Shown here in pieces: positions 11,379 through 33,000 of a stretch of DNA of 33,000 nucleotides. The translations under genes were made by a program, and so were the position numbers. Origin of the DNA: an uncultured Syntrophobacterales bacterium (GTDB taxonomy: Bacteria; Desulfobacterota; Syntrophia; Syntrophales; UBA5619); the NCBI GenBank assembly GCA_903928915.1, contig CAIYSL010000063.1, positions 1-33,000 on the forward strand, read 5' to 3'. Position 1 is the stretch's first letter; each line of letters opens with the position of its first letter. The notes beneath the pieces were generated by a model. The model was not told the origin of the DNA. It made no database searches and saw only the letters and a list, made by a program, of their open reading frames with translations.

Positions 11379-12695
11379 ATGCGGCATCTGAAGCGTCTCA
11401 TCGTCCTCACCGTGGTTGCCCTTTCGGTCCTGGGCTTCGGGGCGGCGCACGGGAAGGTGTACATCGACATCGATTCGCCCTCGTTCCAACGGTTCCCCAT
11501 CGCCATCGCGGACTTCAAACCCCTGTCACCGGGCGCCGGGCCGGGCGATTTCCCCGTCTGGTTCGCCGACACCCTCGGCCGGAACCTGCTGGTCACGGGC
11601 TACTTCACCGTCCTCGACCGGAAGGCCTTCCTGGAGGATCCGGCCCGGGCCGGGATCACGGGGGAGACGACCCGGTTTCCCGACTGGACGGCGATCGGCG
11701 CCGAATACCTCATCAAGGGCGGATTCCAGACGGACGGGCGGCAGCTCACCACGGAATTCCGCCTGTTCGACGTGGTGCGGGGGGAGCTGATCGTCGGGAA
11801 ACGGTACGTGGGGACCCCCGATGACAGAAACCGCATGGTCCTGCAGTTCGCCAACGAGGTGCTCCAGGCGCTCACCGGCGAGGCGGGCCTGTTCGACACC
11901 TGGATCGCCTTCGTCAAGCGGAGCGGCGATACCTCCGATCTGTATACGATCAGCTTCGACGGCTCCGACCTGCGTCGCCTCACGAACTACGGCAGCCTGA
12001 CCGTGTCGCCGCGCTGGTCGCCCGACGGCCGGCGGCTGGCGTTCACCTGTTTCAAAGACGGCAACCCCGACATCTACCTGCGGGACGTGAAGAGCGGCCT
12101 CACCGAAAAGGCAGTTTCTTACCGGGGGGTCAACCTCCCCGGCTCCTGGTCGCGCGACGGGGAGCAGCTCCTGGTCACGCTGAGCAGGGATGGCAATCAG
12201 GAGATCTATGACATGACCGTGTCAAGCAGGCTCCTCCGGCGGCTGACGCGGGAATTCTCCATCGATGTCTCGCCGGTCCGCTCCCCCGACGAGAAACAGA
12301 TCGCCTTCGTGTCGAACCGCCAGGGCTCTCCGCAGATCTTCGTCATGGATGCCGACGGCGGCAACGTCCGGCGGCTGACCACCGAGGGGAATTACAACAC
12401 CTCCCCGGCCTGGTCGCCGAAGGGGAAGCGGATCGCCTATGAAGGATCGGTCAGCGGCCGGTTCCAGATCTTCGTCATCGATGCGGCAGGGGGGACGCCC
12501 CAGCAGCTCACCTTCGGGGGGAGCGACCACGAGTCTCCCACCTGGTCTCCCGACGGGCGGTACCTGGCCTATAGTGTCCGCGGGTACGGCAGGAGCCGGA
12601 TCGAAATCATGAATGCCAACGGCCAGAACATCCGGGTCCTGCACGAGGGGAATGAGGGGTGTCAAAGCCCCTTCTGGTCGCCCCATATTCGCTGA
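11379..12695 (+). CDS. tolB: Tol-Pal system beta-propeller protein TolB
   Basis: A 438-residue periplasmic protein. Residues 1-25 form a signal peptide (LKRLIVLTVVALSVLGFGAAHG). The N-terminal domain (about 28-160) is followed by a six-bladed propeller made of WD40-like PD40 repeats, recognised by recurring SPRWSPDGRRLAFTC, DIYLRDVKSG, SPAWSPKGKRIAYEG and SPTWSPDGRYLAYSV segments. TolB binds Pal and TolA in the periplasm. GGAGGGGGAG (11361-11370) precedes the ATG at 11379. It lies 28 bases after the tolA-like gene. Length matches E. coli TolB (430). Confidence 0.95.
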   Translation: MRHLKRLIVLTVVALSVLGFGAAHGKVYIDIDSPSFQRFPIAIADFKPLSPGAGPGDFPVWFADTLGRNLLVTGYFTVLDRKAFLEDPARAGITGETTRFPDWTAIGAEYLIKGGFQTDGRQLTTEFRLFDVVRGELIVGKRYVGTPDDRNRMVLQFANEVLQALTGEAGLFDTWIAFVKRSGDTSDLYTISFDGSDLRRLTNYGSLTVSPRWSPDGRRLAFTCFKDGNPDIYLRDVKSGLTEKAVSYRGVNLPGSWSRDGEQLLVTLSRDGNQEIYDMTVSSRLLRRLTREFSIDVSPVRSPDEKQIAFVSNRQGSPQIFVMDADGGNVRRLTTEGNYNTSPAWSPKGKRIAYEGSVSGRFQIFVIDAAGGTPQQLTFGGSDHESPTWSPDGRYLAYSVRGYGRSRIEIMNANGQNIRVLHEGNEGCQSPFWSPHIR

Positions 12696-26945: not shown

Positions 26946-27929
26946 TCAGATCGGCTGGATGCCCGCTTCTTTGACGACCTTCAGCCACTTGGTGATCTCG
27001 GAACGAACAAAGGCCTCGTACTCCTCCGGCGAGCTGCCCACCGGATCGGCCCCCTGTTCGGCCAGGCGCTTCTTCACATCCGGAATCTTCAGGGTCTTGA
27101 CCACCGCGTCGTGCAGCTTGTCGATGATCGGACGGGGCGTCCCGGCCGGGACGAACAGTCCGAAGCCCGTGGAAACCAGGAACCCCGGCATGCCCGCCTC
27201 CTGCATCGTGACGATATCGGGAGCCGCCGGCGAGCGCTTGGCGCCGGTCATGGCGATCGCCCGGAGCTTGCCCGACTTGATGTGCTGCATCGCCGCGGGC
27301 ATGCTGACGAACTGGAGCTGCACGTGGCCGCCCAACAGGTCGATCAGGGCCGGGCCGGCCCCCTTGTAGTGGACGACCTCGATCTTGATCTGGGCCATGG
27401 ATTTGAGCAACTCGCCGGAGAGGTGGCCGACCGTTCCGATCCCGGAGGTGCCCATGTTCAGCTTGTTGGGATTGGCCTTGGCAAAAGCGATGAGTTCCTT
27501 CAGCGTCTTGGCCTGCACCGATGGGTGGGCCACCAGCACCGTGGGCACGTCCGACACCATCGAAACGGCGGCGAAGGCCTTGACGGTGTCGTAGGGAAGC
27601 TTCTTGACCATGCTGGGGTTGATCACATGGCTGGCCGATACCATCAGGGTAGTGTAGCCGTCCGGGGGCGCCTTGGCGACGATGTCCGACCCGATCGCCC
27701 CACCGGCGCCGCCGCGGTTGTCGACCACGAACGGCGCGCCGAGGGTCTGGCCCAACTCGTTGCTGATGGCCCGGGAGATGATGTCCACGTTACCACCCGG
27801 CGCGAACGGCACGACCAGACGGATCGACCGGCCCGGCTCGGGATAGGCGGCGCCGAACCCGCCGGCCGGGATCAGCAGAGCGAGGGATAAGACGGCTGCG
27901 AGCGAGAAAAGCAATCTCCTGGATTTCAT
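26946..27929 (-). CDS. Tripartite tricarboxylate transporter substrate-binding protein (TctC/Bug family)
   Basis: A 327-residue periplasmic solute-binding protein. The signal peptide is residues 1-27 (LLFSLAAVLSLALLIPAGGFGAA). Family motifs follow: YPEPGRSIRLVVPFAPGGNVDIISR, VVDNRGGAGGAIGSDIVAKAPPDGYT, the HVQLQFVSMPAA region and GTPRPIIDKLHDAVVKTL. These proteins bind carboxylic acids (citrate, other di- or tricarboxylates, nicotinate-like acids) and hand them to TctAB membrane subunits. No tctA or tctB is in the window, so it is an orphan here, as is common for the large Bug families of Betaproteobacteria. GGAGGAG lies just before the ATG at 27929. Confidence 0.93.
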   Translation of the reverse strand: MKSRRLLFSLAAVLSLALLIPAGGFGAAYPEPGRSIRLVVPFAPGGNVDIISRAISNELGQTLGAPFVVDNRGGAGGAIGSDIVAKAPPDGYTTLMVSASHVINPSMVKKLPYDTVKAFAAVSMVSDVPTVLVAHPSVQAKTLKELIAFAKANPNKLNMGTSGIGTVGHLSGELLKSMAQIKIEVVHYKGAGPALIDLLGGHVQLQFVSMPAAMQHIKSGKLRAIAMTGAKRSPAAPDIVTMQEAGMPGFLVSTGFGLFVPAGTPRPIIDKLHDAVVKTLKIPDVKKRLAEQGADPVGSSPEEYEAFVRSEITKWLKVVKEAGIQPI

Positions 27930-29742: not shown

Positions 29743-29792
29743 AAAACGGAGCGCCGATTCGTGTCGTTCTGAGCCATATGAGGTGTGGCACT

Positions 29793-29976
29793 CATACCGC
29801 GAAGGGTAGCACGAATCCCTCTGTGTCATATCCCTTGTCTGTGCCGACGGTCACCCGTCTCGTTCCCGGGATGCTCTGGATCATATCTGCGGCCGCATCC
29901 CGCTCGGCAGTTCCCGTAGCCAGGGTTACCCGAGTATCCAGCACCAGACGGTTGCGGTTTCCATGAGGGTATGACC
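29793..29976 (-). pseudogene. IS5-type transposase remnant with frameshift
   Basis: On the minus strand, 29976 downwards reads GHTLME in one frame, then after an apparent one-base shift RNRLVLDTRVTLATGTAERDAA and MIQSIPGTRRVTVGTDKGYDTEGFV in another, ending at a TGA at 29793-29795. This is the recognisable mid-section (GH-LMENRNGLVVD, ATGTAER, GADKGYDT) of IS5-family DDE transposases. Both ends and the catalytic Glu region are missing, so it is dead. I could not see terminal inverted repeats. It marks the edge of the accessory region. Confidence 0.75.
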
Positions 29977-30072
29977 TGTAATTCCAAGGTATTATGCGCT
30001 GAATACTACCACAAGACGGGCAAAGTTGCGAAACGTTACTTGAAAGACTTTTTCAACAACCTGTTAGATCTC

Positions 30073-30101
30073 TTGACAAATGTCGCATATTCCCTTACCA
30101 T
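30073..30101 (+). promoter_or_regulatory. vapBC promoter
   Basis: Perfect TTGACA (30073-30078), 17 bases, TACCAT (30096-30101). The -10 lies inside the first inverted repeat of the operator, as expected for a self-repressed toxin-antitoxin operon. Confidence 0.65.
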
Positions 30102-30126
30102 GCTGGTAAGGAATAAATTCCTTACC
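30093..30126. promoter_or_regulatory. vapBC operator with three alternating half-sites
   Basis: CCTTACCA (30093-30100) and TGGTAAGG (30104-30111) form an 8-bp inverted repeat with a 3-base centre. The second arm also takes part in a perfect 10-bp inverted repeat, GGTAAGGAAT (30105-30114) and ATTCCTTACC (30117-30126). The three half-sites cover the -10 and the leader up to 12 bases before the vapB ATG, a layout suited to repression by a VapB dimer or VapBC chain. Confidence 0.7.
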
Positions 30127-30138
30127 GAGAGGTGCATC

Positions 30139-30378
30139 ATGATTACCGCTAGAGTAACATCCAAAGGACAGGTGACTATACCTAAAGAGGTTCGCCAGAG
30201 GCTGGGTGTCCATGTGGGAGAGGATATCGGGTTTGAGGAAAAGGAGGGCCTTTATGTGGTCAGAAAGGTCGTCACCAAATCTCCCTTTGACAAATGGGTG
30301 GGCAGACTGAAGCATTTGAAGGGGCAAAGAAGCGACGACTTGATCAAGGAGGCCCGCGGCCATGATCACAGCCGTTGA
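30139..30378 (+). CDS. vapB: AbrB/SpoVT-type antitoxin VapB
   Basis: A 79-residue protein with an N-terminal AbrB/MazE-like swapped-hairpin DNA-binding domain: ITARVTSKGQVTIPKEVRQRLGVHVGEDIGF (residues 2-32) is the family signature. The C-terminal part (SPFDKWVGRLKHLKGQRSDDLIKEARGHD) would wrap the toxin. The last 17 bases overlap the vapC start, a typical coupled arrangement. GAGAGG precedes the ATG at 30139. It should neutralise the downstream PIN toxin and repress the shared promoter through the half-sites upstream. Confidence 0.92.
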   Translation: MITARVTSKGQVTIPKEVRQRLGVHVGEDIGFEEKEGLYVVRKVVTKSPFDKWVGRLKHLKGQRSDDLIKEARGHDHSR

Positions 30379-30841
30379 TACGAACATCATTCTCGATGTC
30401 TTGATTCCCGGAGAGCCCTTCGGCGAATCCTCCAAGGAACTCCTCGATCGTGCTCTGTCAAAGGGAAAGCTCATCCTCTCTGAGGTTGTTGTTGCCGAAT
30501 TGGCGGCCCGATTTCCATCCCGGGACGAGCTCACATCGTTTCTTACCGATACGAGAATGAATCTCGTCCATTCCACCGAGGAATCGCTTTATCTCGCAGG
30601 GGCGAAATGGGTGCAATATACCAAGAAGAACGCGAAGGGTCGGTTTTCCTGCAGCAAGTGCGGCCATGTTTTCGAGCCGTCCTGTCCCGCGTGCAAGTCG
30701 GCCCTGACCAAGCGTCTTCATGTCCTGGCCGATTTTCTCATCGGCGCCCATGCACTTGTTCAGGCGGACTGCATTCTCTCCCGGGATCTTGGTGTGTATA
30801 AGGCCTATTTTAAGAACCTGAAGGTCGTCGACGCGGTATGA
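30362..30841 (+). CDS. vapC: VapC-type PIN-domain toxin with inserted zinc ribbon
   Basis: A 159-residue PIN ribonuclease. Acidic active-site residues are visible: Asp6 in VDTNII, Glu46 in VVAELAAR, Asp124 in ADFLIGAHA and Asp142 in LSRDLG. VapC toxins cut tRNA or rRNA and stop translation. The unusual part is residues 94-118: Cys97-x2-Cys100 and Cys108-x2-Cys111 form a compact zinc-ribbon-like loop placed between the helix ending AGAKWVQYTKK and the conserved ADFLIGAHA strand. Most VapC proteins of this type have just a short basic loop there. The insertion may stabilise the fold or add RNA contact. Reading frame and promoter look intact, so it is probably functional. Confidence 0.92.
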   Translation: MITAVDTNIILDVLIPGEPFGESSKELLDRALSKGKLILSEVVVAELAARFPSRDELTSFLTDTRMNLVHSTEESLYLAGAKWVQYTKKNAKGRFSCSKCGHVFEPSCPACKSALTKRLHVLADFLIGAHALVQADCILSRDLGVYKAYFKNLKVVDAV

Positions 30842-30883
30842 GCGGTCCATCTTTCAAGCTTCCGTGAAAGGGACGGTTCACAA

Positions 30884-31009
30884 ATGAAGACGAAGAACTG
30901 CCCGGTCTGCGACTACCTGCGAAGATCTTCTGTTCAACCACTACCCCGAGAGTTTGCGGCCTGGGATCGAAACGATGGATGGGATGGGCGGAGGATTTAT
31001 CACATGTGA
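30884..31009 (+). pseudogene. Short reading frame, possible decayed gene start
   Basis: ATG at 30884 opens a 41-codon frame reading MKTKNCPVCDYLRR before the sequence loses sense. The CPVCDYL start resembles the N-terminus of two-cysteine-pair proteins of unknown function. A second frame (ending at 31055) continues with EDLLFNHYPESLRPGIETMDGM, which suggests a frameshifted remnant. Weak evidence; it may be non-coding. Confidence 0.2.
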
Positions 31010-31013
31010 TAAA
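30996..31013. repeat. Perfect 18-base palindrome TTTATCACA/TGTGATAAA
   Basis: Two 9-base arms meet without a spacer, 47 bases from the tRNA fragment. Related TATCACA words recur near 31238-31255. Could be a binding site for an excision/integration factor or a CRP/FNR-like regulator; not assigned. Confidence 0.55.
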
Positions 31014-31059
31014 AAAAGGGGTCACAGCCGCGGTTGCGACTTGTAACCCCTTTAATTCA

Positions 31060-31107
31060 TGGTGGGCCAGGACAGAATTGAACTGTCGACACACGGATTT
31101 TCAGTCC
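31060..31107 (-). other. 3' half of tRNA-Phe(GAA), probable attachment (att) scar
   Basis: Reading the minus strand from 31107 to 31060 gives the 3' 48 bases of a tRNA: anticodon loop CTGAAAA (anticodon GAA, Phe), the 3' anticodon strand, variable loop GTGTC, a T arm with stem GACAG/CTGTC around TTCAATT, acceptor strand CTGGCCC and an encoded ACCA end. On the 5' side (31108 onward) the sequence is unrelated and cannot form the D arm or acceptor partner. Integrases of phages and islands commonly recombine in exactly this half of a tRNA gene, leaving such copies at the far end of the element. Confidence 0.85.
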
Positions 31108-31285
31108 AAAATAACCAATAATATCAAGCCCTTGATCTCGTGTTTGATTTCCCGTATATAACCAATCTTGTACGCCTAAACGGATTCTCGGAGTTCCTGC
31201 CTGTTCCAGTTGTTCCCCAACTTTCCTTTTACTTCTATCACAAATCTATCACATGAAAAAGAGGGTCCCTATCATGTAGGCGAAA

Positions 31286-31552
31286 TTACCGAGCAGCCCT
31301 CTTGGGTGAAGCGCCGGTGCCACGCTTGGTCAGATGTTTGGTCTTCTCCACCAGATCGATCAGCGACAGCAGGGCCGTGTTCACCGCCTCTTCATTCGGG
31401 AAGGCTTTCGCCACCTCCGGTTTGAGCACGACGATGTTGGACGATTCCCGCAGCCGCTGGGCATACTTCCCCCGCACGAACCCGCCGGGAAAATCGCCGC
31501 GTTTGTACTCAGCGCGCAATTCGCCGCTGTCCGGCGCTTTATCCTTCTTCAT
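31286..31552 (-). CDS. Putative antitoxin partner of the BrnT toxin
   Basis: An 88-residue protein. Its middle reads GGFVRGKYAQRLRESSNIVVLKPEVAKAFPNEEAVNTALLSLIDL (about 26-70), matching a small family with a G-VRGKY-R-NVVVL-P-VA-FP-VN-AL pattern often found next to DUF497/BrnT genes. It lacks the ribbon-helix-helix BrnA sequence as usually described, though the NVVVL-plus-two-helix end may be a variant of it. It overlaps the toxin gene by 14 bases and is translated after it (toxin first, antitoxin second), as in brnTA operons. The start is either ATG 31552 or GTG 31561; GGAG lies 12 or 3 bases upstream respectively, so neither is ideal. Antitoxin role is inferred from position. Confidence 0.65.
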   Translation of the reverse strand: MKKDKAPDSGELRAEYKRGDFPGGFVRGKYAQRLRESSNIVVLKPEVAKAFPNEEAVNTALLSLIDLVEKTKHLTKRGTGASPKRAAR

Positions 31553-31811
31553 ATAATTCACGTTCTCCTTTGCTCGCTATGCGGGCACTGATTATGCGAA
31601 TGGTTTCCCGTTTTTCCGTATGGGCCACGACCAACAACCGGCCCCTTTCCGAAACGCCAAAGGTGATGTAGCGCTCCTCATCGAGCGAATGGTCCGGATC
31701 CGCGGCGGTGGCGGCCATGGTGTCACTGAGTGCCGTGGCGGCTTCTTCGAAAGAGACGCGGTGCTTCTTGAGGTTGGCCGTTGCCTTCTTCGGATCCCAT
31801 TCGATTTTCAT
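31539..31811 (-). CDS. brnT: BrnT-family toxin (DUF497)
   Basis: A 90-residue protein with the BrnT signature: MKIEWDPKKATANLKKHRVSFEEAATAL at the start, DEERYITFGVSERGRLLVVAHTE in the middle and IRIISARIASKGERELYEE at the end, giving the RelE-like ribonuclease fold with the conserved RIISAR segment. BrnT stops translation by cutting RNA and is held in check by its partner. A perfect 10-base palindrome ATGATATCAT (31818-31827) lies 7 bases upstream of the ATG and may be an autoregulatory site. No strong ribosome site is visible. It belongs to the accessory region right of the tRNA scar. Confidence 0.88.
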   Translation of the reverse strand: MKIEWDPKKATANLKKHRVSFEEAATALSDTMAATAADPDHSLDEERYITFGVSERGRLLVVAHTEKRETIRIISARIASKGERELYEEG

Positions 31812-32029
31812 GGCTCGATGATATCATGTTTATTGTTTCAAATCCATTCTTTCCCGGAAACTCGCCGTAGCACTTCCGCTGACCGTTTTCACTTCCATTT
31901 CTCGTATCTCCATGACCGGTCAGGCTCTTTCCAGCCACGAAAAATACTTTTCCTATAACTCCTATAGTCTCTGGCTTCTTAGACAATTCCGAAATGGGCT
32001 TTTACCATGCATTCCCAAAGGAGGCATGT
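31812..32029. other. Divergent gap between brnT and the peptidase gene
   Basis: About 218 AT-richer bases. Holds the ATGATATCAT palindrome near brnT and, towards the peptidase, AT-rich words TATAAC (31954-31959) and TATAGT (31963-31968) that could be -10 elements, without a good -35. AAAGGAGG at 32017-32024 is the peptidase ribosome site. Confidence 0.4.
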
Positions 32030-32893
32030 ATGAAAAAGACAGGAATAGACAGGGGAGGCGGGGAAGCCCAGCGGTCCAGCGGCCAGGCCAAATGGACGTT
32101 CATGGTCTATATGGCCGGGGACAACAACCTCGACGGTGCGGCCCTCCGGGACATCGCCGAGATGGCCAAGGCGGGATCTACAAAAGACGTTCACATCCTG
32201 GTGCAGCTCGATCGGATCGAGGACCAGAAGACCCGGCGCTTCCGAATCACCCAAGGCGGCGGGTTCAAGAAAGACTGCATCGAAAGTTTCGGCGATACCA
32301 ACACCGGTGACCCGCAAATCCTTTACAGCTTCGTCAAATGGGCGGTGGACAATTATCCCGCCGACCGCTACGCCCTGATCCTCTGGAACCACGGCAGCGG
32401 CTGGTGGGAAGATGCAAAGAGCCGGGCTGCCGGTCCCGCTGGCAGGCAGCCGCGCCGGTCTCTCTTCAGCCACGACTTTCCACCAGCCCACCGCAGCATC
32501 TGCTACGACGACACCTCCGGCGGCGACGCCCTGGACAACCGGGAACTGAGGGTCGTCTTGGCCGGGATCTGCACCCTCCTCGGCCGGAAGATCGACCTCC
32601 TGGGTATGGATGCCTGCCTCATGAACATGGTGGAGGTGGCCTGGCAGCTCAGGGATTCTGTGAGCGTGATTGTCGGTTCGGAGATCGAGGAGCCCTTCGA
32701 CGGCTGGCCCTATGCCGAGATCCTCTCCCGTCTGGCCGCCCGGCCCCGACAAGACGCCGCCACCTTCGCCCGCTGGATCGTCAGGAGCTACCTTGCCTCC
32801 TACAAGGTCGTGGGGGAGATGGTCACCCAGTCCGCCCTCGACGCAAGCAGAATCAACGATGTGAATCGGCATGCAATAATGACCCACCTTTGA
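32030..32893 (+). pseudogene. Clostripain-family (C11) cysteine peptidase, interrupted by an IS
   Basis: The frame starts at ATG 32030 (AAAGGAGG five bases upstream). Residues 22-35 (WTFMVYMAGDNNLD) are the family's opening strand; the catalytic dyad is His121 in LILWNHGSGW and Cys196 in LLGMDACLMNM, with IVGSEIEEPFDGWPYAEIL after it. So the catalytic half is complete. Near residue 277 (SRIND) the sequence passes into the left end of an IS21-type element, which adds about ten foreign residues (VNRHAIMTHL) and a stop. The usual C-terminal part of such peptidases is missing from this side. No signal peptide is seen. C11 enzymes cut after Arg or Lys; whether the truncated form works is doubtful. 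Confidence 0.88.
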
Positions 32894-32922
32894 GCTAAAT
32901 CGGCATCTAAAATTGACCCACC
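32864..32922 (+). repeat. IS21 terminal repeat pair
   Basis: Two 25-base copies at 32864-32888 and 32898-32922 agree at 21 positions; both begin AATCGGCAT and end TGACCCACC. Such repeated transposase-binding sites sit at the ends of IS21 elements. Confidence 0.85.
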
Positions 32923-32975
32923 CTGGACAGCCTTCTACACTGCTGGCAATCGGGCAGAAGGAGGGCTGTGGGGAG

Positions 32976-33000
32976 ATGCTTGTCGTGGAGACGATACGGA
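32976..33000 (+). CDS. istA: IS21 transposase IstA, N-terminal start
   Basis: Only eight codons are present: MLVVETIR, the usual opening of IstA-type transposases (ML-VETI-KIR). AAGGAGG lies about 11 bases upstream. The remainder is outside the window. Confidence 0.65.

Follow-up and report, generated by a model that had tools for sequence, protein, structure and literature searches.

A displaced tRNA-Phe 3' half that probably marks the junction between two decayed tandem integrative elements

A fragment of tRNA-Phe is probably the junction core between two tandem, decayed integrative elements whose common tyrosine-integrase family targets the anticodon loop of tRNA genes. The core, a dead integrase tail, and repeats on both sides are found in the window, the whole stretch of 33,000 bp that was analyzed, and a tandem of like construction is found in a congener (G001, the same-genus MAG WY2.bin112). 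The window is the entire contig C63 of a 4.34-Mb source genome (141 contigs; contamination, 3.59), and its features are collected in Table 1. As a find, the fragment is a well-known type of genome scar with a dead integrase tail attached.

Table 1. Features around the tRNA-Phe half, in window coordinates
Feature	Position	Strand	Basis or remark
AbrB/MazE-family antitoxin of left element (VapB-like)	30136..30378	+	PF04014, E 2.3e-10; TIGR01439 above cut-off
PIN-domain toxin (VapC-like)	30362..30841	+	PF01850, E 4.7e-07
Tyrosine integrase C-terminal tail, frameshifted	30936..31051	+	Residues 322-364 of a 364-aa homologue
Putative integrase-side arm repeat, reduced	30998..31011		One direct TATCACA and one inverted copy
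tRNA-Phe 3' half, attachment-site core	31060..31107	-	tRNA positions 29-76, CCA included
Opposite attachment arm, element side	31108..31285	+	DNA matches of 82% (G001:C29) and 74% (G001:C35)
Putative arm repeat TATCACAAATCTATCACA	31236..31253	+	Only ATCACA-n5-ATCACA in window
Small ORF overlapping BrnT gene, probable BrnA-type antitoxin by position	31286..31561	-	No Pfam or NCBIfam match
BrnT-family ribonuclease toxin	31539..31811	-	PF04365, E 5.9e-27; no NCBIfam match
C11 (clostripain family) peptidase, 3' end truncated	32021..32866	+	PF03415, E 4.8e-53
IS-like end cutting peptidase gene and ending contig	32864..33000	+	Direct repeat 32864/32898

Results

The fragment is the 3' half of a tRNA-Phe gene. 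Read from 31107 to 31060 on the minus strand, it spans part of the anticodon stem (three base pairs), the anticodon loop with GAA, the variable loop, the T arm, the 3' strand of the acceptor stem, and CCA. The only intact tRNA-Phe found in the source genome (C32:124-199, minus strand, by ARAGORN) is identical to it at 47 of 48 positions, and a chance control, one base-shuffled window searched on one strand, reached 26/48 at best. The first-pass annotation placed a tRNA-Phe 3' half with CCA at exactly the right coordinates, and the intact gene lies outside the window, as in one of its two alternatives, with an integrase tail beside it. Islands are recognized by a displaced 3' tDNA fragment whose intact tRNA counterpart is present in the genome that carries it, and such a pair is what these two copies form. 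The core occurs once in the window, with no second copy. Among 39 other stretches, 16 matched it, 12 of them at 48/48 (related genomes).

The fragment was rejected as a complete tRNA gene and as a novel tRNA-like RNA, as ARAGORN finds no tRNA in the window. The Rfam tRNA model matches 31063-31131 exactly at the gathering score (29.0 bits), but the 5' part of that match belongs to the element and recurs next to the orphan halves of G001:C29 and G001:C35, where ARAGORN likewise reports no tRNA at the orphan, and we do not take the match for a real tRNA. That the fragment is a misassembled full tRNA is also unlikely, because an independent genome (G001:C29) has the same fragment and right flank with a different left flank.

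The tRNA half is adjoined by the remains of an integrase. Directly beyond CCA sits a tail of about 40 codons, detected by tblastn at 30936-31051 as 23 aa at 91% identity and, in a different frame that has two stops, 17 aa at 76%. The integrase represented there is dead. Across 30937-31107, which covers the integrase end and the tRNA half, the window DNA is 86% identical to G001:C169, where an intact 364-aa tyrosine integrase (PF00589, E 2.4e-35) has its stop 5 bp from an intact tRNA-Phe and follows an excisionase-family gene (TIGR01764 above cut-off). Moreover, the intact tRNA-Phe on C32 has beside it an integrase tail that is in frame to the contig edge and ends KPRLRLVTP (residues 327-364 at 60.5%). 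A tyrosine integrase next to tRNA sequence is represented in three states: an in-frame tail at C32, a dead tail in the window, and an intact gene at G001:C169. The alignments of full-length relatives reach to within 8 to 35 bp of tRNA-Phe, -Lys(ttt), -Arg(tct), and -Arg(cct), and a same-family integrase split over two frames ends beside tRNA-Gln(ctg) in G020:C72 (L040, 8913-9464). In G023:C1 (L039, 9463-9948), we note a degraded tRNA-Phe 3' half beside an integrase pseudogene with an internal TAG; no intact tRNA-Phe lies within that 20-kb stretch, and it is another lone core with an integrase end.

The stretch beyond CCA resembles a terminator hairpin, and it may be both a terminator and the coding end of the integrase. 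A hairpin as the cause of the repeat was rejected, as the stretch encodes the integrase C terminus ...PRLRLVTP in frame at G001:C169 and C32. Indeed, the repeat shared by C63 and C32 exceeds the tRNA half (31011-31107 at 89%) because the integrase 3' end follows both copies.

Arm-like repeats flank the core. The window has a single ATCACA-n5-ATCACA (31237-31253; expectation, 0.01), and four of the five copies of TATCACA fall in 30998-31011 and 31236-31253; at least five copies arose in 1 of 100 shuffles. As read by eye, 7 of 11 integrase-side stretches have the exact double repeat (C32, G001:C169, G004, G020, G021, L118, and the right copy of G001:C35); it is altered in the window, in the left copy of G001:C35, and in G023, and absent in G039. 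Opposite arms carry it exactly in three of four cases, also by eye, with G001:C35 altered. From their sequence, we infer that the repeats are arm-type integrase sites. With arm-like repeats on both sides and an integrase tail, the site is therefore attP-like (arm-core-arm).

The right side of the junction recurs in the congener. Window positions 31059-31571 match G001:C29 at 88% identity from an orphan tRNA-Phe half onward, and 31940-32863 are 86% identical further along the same contig. The match begins at the tRNA 3' end, and the left flanks are unrelated. Next to the half in G001:C29 is a terminator-like sequence (by eye), with no integrase tail by tblastn, such that the site appears attR-like. 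A related arm stands beside a tRNA-Phe half in G039:C80, where tblastn also shows no integrase tail. A search with the arm alone matched 18 of 41 genomes at E up to 0.5; except for G000 and G001, these matches were at E 0.015 or worse and were treated as chance.

Between arm and peptidase gene, the two genomes differ in cargo. At G001:C29, the counterpart of the small ORF (95% aa identity over 86 residues) is followed by a HEPN and nucleotidyltransferase pair in place of BrnT. The window peptidase is 86% identical in amino acids to its G001:C29 counterpart, an ORF of 413 aa. Other copies of the C11 peptidase have no detectable arm (G001:C6, G001:C22, G010, and G004), and the association of the peptidase with the attachment site is therefore not exclusive. 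As for the genes that the first-pass annotation had called toxin-antitoxin pairs, Pfam supports the AbrB/MazE, PIN, and BrnT members, while the partner ORF of BrnT matches neither Pfam nor NCBIfam. As to its IS pieces, 32857-32922 matches the beginning of contig C33 at 82% identity; a suspected transposase remnant at 29795-30010 (minus strand) had no Pfam match and was dropped. The IS-like end at 32864-33000 is presumably IS21-like.

A tandem of this kind is found at a tRNA-Leu in the congener. Over about 3 kb of G001:C35, an intact tRNA-Leu (12522-12609) is followed by an integrase tail, then by a 5' piece of a C11 peptidase gene and an AbiEi/AbiEii pair. Next come the opposite arm with an orphan tRNA-Leu half, a second integrase-end sequence, and a second 5' piece of the peptidase gene; a HipA gene lies further left. 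The two cores are an 81-nt repeat at 98% identity, 2,651 bp apart. Of the two integrase ends, tblastn lists the right tail only, and the left one rests on DNA repeats. The order in the window runs parallel: a toxin-antitoxin pair (30136-30841), the integrase tail, the core, the arm, a toxin-antitoxin pair (31286-31811), and the peptidase (32021-32866). A tandem array is recognized by an internal junction with an arm, a core, and the integrase end of the next element; these parts are present here, the repeats presumably acting as arms. Of the integrase gene and tDNA fragment that each unit of an array should have, the window shows one fragment and one dead integrase tail, and no outer fragment was found in it.

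The host tRNA-Phe is unusual at pair 27-43 of the anticodon stem. That pair is A-T in 16 of 16 other family genomes that yielded an intact tRNA-Phe (a single copy in each; loci L010-L028 without L017, L025, and L027), and the orphan half carries T43, as in the family. The intact gene of the source genome is T27-A43, and the same T-A occurs in G036 and G033, both outside the family. T27-A43 fits a 3' half imported by an element. Position 27 lies outside the orphan core, however, and the crossover would therefore have been further upstream or a compensating change would have come later. Simple mutation of the pair would also account for it.

The left part of the window looks chromosomal. GC content is 65.5% over 1-29742, 52.1% over 29743-31060, and 56.6% over 31061-32863, in agreement with the drop reported earlier. 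Gene order is kept up to rnhA in G003 and partly in G005 (the tol-pal to rnhA block; G005 as far as covered); we take the genes of this block to be tol-pal, ctpA, rnhA, and others. No window gene from beyond rnhA turned up next to rnhA in the relatives examined. Of 22 other genomes with matches to both rnhA and the tRNA-Phe half, one has them less than 5 kb apart (G006, about 4.3 kb), a test limited by contig ends, and in G023 an orphan half is on the rnhA contig but 837 kb away. An intact tRNA-Phe with no adjoining integrase tail occurs in relatives (by eye), but rnhA is near it in G006 only. Sequence downstream of tRNA-Phe was common to 2 of 45 pairs when 10 genomes were compared, and a search with the cupin gave no match in any of 20 relatives at E 1e-20. 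Other synteny trials, with a 7.5-kb DNA stretch in the genus and with tRNA-Phe downstream stretches (9 genomes) against the window and rnhA regions, were weak or negative. The outer-membrane gene beside the G001:C29 orphan has one homologue in the source genome, at 48% and on C139. A link between the left chromosomal region of the window and the tRNA-Phe locus is plausible.

Discussion

How the junction formed can be proposed from its order. The left element, with its VapBC-like pair and the integrase tail, would have inserted first, and the right element, with its arm, BrnT pair, and C11 peptidase, would have inserted next at the same tRNA, between the tRNA and the first element. Each insertion would rebuild the tRNA with the incoming 3' half and push the previous 3' half and the previous integrase outward; from such displacement, element arm, tRNA half, and integrase tail would therefore come to lie in a row. 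Subsequent decay may have taken most of the left integrase, and the IS-like sequence may have cut the peptidase gene later. Several points count against a tandem: the repeat on the left, integrase side is only partly preserved, no outer attR for the left element was found within the window, rnhA of the left-hand genes is near tRNA-Phe in G006 only, the left integrase tail of G001:C35 is missing from the tblastn matches, and C63 and C32 are unjoined. At 33000, C63 breaks off in IS-like sequence, and C32 stops 123 bp beyond tRNA-Phe; the assembly contains no DNA that joins them and no second match to the first 130 bases of C32 at E 0.001, and the tandem is not seen end to end in the source genome. 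The two contigs presumably meet at the same tRNA locus.

The first-pass annotation took the fragment for a trace of tRNA integration at an island boundary. Integration into tRNA-Phe stands, but a clean outer edge does not fit the integrase 3' end on the left and the arm-like repeats on both sides. A simple outer boundary, in which the fragment is the host's displaced tRNA 3' end with chromosome directly to the left and a single island to the right, is unlikely. The genes of 1-29742 do have a chromosomal look at 65.5% GC, with the tol-pal to rnhA order kept in G003 and partly in G005, and the half has T43 like the 16 family genes while the intact gene is T27-A43, as if its 3' half were imported. 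The integrase 3' end directly left of CCA, however, is unlike G001:C29 and, by eye, most relatives, and GC is low from about 29743, where the AbrB/PIN pair lies.

It is more improbable still that a circular element with arms and core inserted here by another route and never at the tRNA-Phe of this genome. Such a lone attP-like copy would look identical at the junction, the arm-core-arm layout agrees with it, and the left genes are unlinked to tRNA-Phe in relatives, G006 excepted. Nonetheless, the array at the tRNA-Leu of G001:C35 shows a junction of this kind produced by a tandem at a tRNA, and the tRNA-Phe of C32 carries an integrase end of the same family. Finally, a wrong join at the repeat of about 97 bp shared by C63 and C32 would be an artefact of assembly or binning, for which the fragmented genome (141 contigs; contamination, 3.59) and the position of both copies near contig ends might speak. 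The right junction is reproduced in G001:C29, however, and the left one, integrase end plus tRNA 3' half, in G001:C169, and the window copy is distinct from that of C32 (89%); an artefact is very hard to credit. We conclude that a junction between tandem elements is the probable origin of the fragment.

A wider reading of the family is offered tentatively, and we think it rather doubtful. The elements could be small ones of these Deltaproteobacteria in which the arm repeat lies inside the coding sequence of the integrase C-terminal tail (ATCACAAATTTATCACA encoding ITNLSQ/H). The arms would be kept as the core switches between tRNA-Phe and tRNA-Leu (on the integrase side, also -Lys, -Gln, and -Arg), and by the opposite arm, upstream of the C11 peptidase gene, there would be a slot in which one toxin-antitoxin family takes the place of another (BrnT, HEPN-nucleotidyltransferase, and AbiEi/AbiEii). 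Insertion may also have replaced pair 27-43 of the window host's tRNA-Phe. The junction alone is a routine scar of mobile DNA. Nevertheless, the order of arm, core, and integrase tail would tell which element came first, such that a vague boundary becomes a readable junction, and the congener arrays would be a small natural series of tRNA target switching and toxin-antitoxin cargo swapping with constant arms.

Comparable islands are on record. Islander tRNA-gene islands with anticodon-loop (type A) attachment (PMC4383910) likewise have a displaced 3' tDNA fragment with a core starting in the anticodon stem, and a tyrosine integrase beside the intact tRNA, which here is found in relatives. Unlike those islands, the window has its fragment against a dead integrase tail instead of plain chromosome, and its two ends fall on different contigs. 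Islands are known to grow by tandem accretion (PMC4383910 and PMC8978831), and an Islander table in the former counts 125 tandems of two or more and 3,919 islands. In contrast to those tandem island arrays, only 3' tails of the integrases are left here, and each unit has few genes. The island GI21 in Shewanella putrefaciens (PMC8978831) has a different target and different toxin-antitoxin families from the window elements; stabilization was tested there, and the pairs in the window may play a similar role.

The integrase genes compared from elsewhere in the source genome are not close kin of the one at the junction. Six matches were found (C124, C125, C68, C33, C51, and C81), and the comparison covered the first five. 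As close relatives, C124, C125, C68, and C33 were rejected at 23 to 24% identity, and the C51 integrase had no match to the junction family at E < 0.05. Contig C51 (L037) starts inside an integrase 3' end (1-342; PF00589 just below cut-off) near a tRNA-Lys at 266-342. C51 and C32 are both broken inside an integrase beside a tRNA, and a mixture of excised and integrated states might be the cause. A viral origin of the element was not supported, as viral_contigs gave four pattern-matching stretches, of which none (0/4) encoded an integrase relative. On C33 (L036; 97-162 and 581-1471), the IS-like end recurs at the contig start near the distantly related integrase gene. Finally, a gene at 26952-27855 of the window, whose product we take to be a tripartite-tricarboxylate-type binding protein, has eleven more matches of similar DNA in the same genome.
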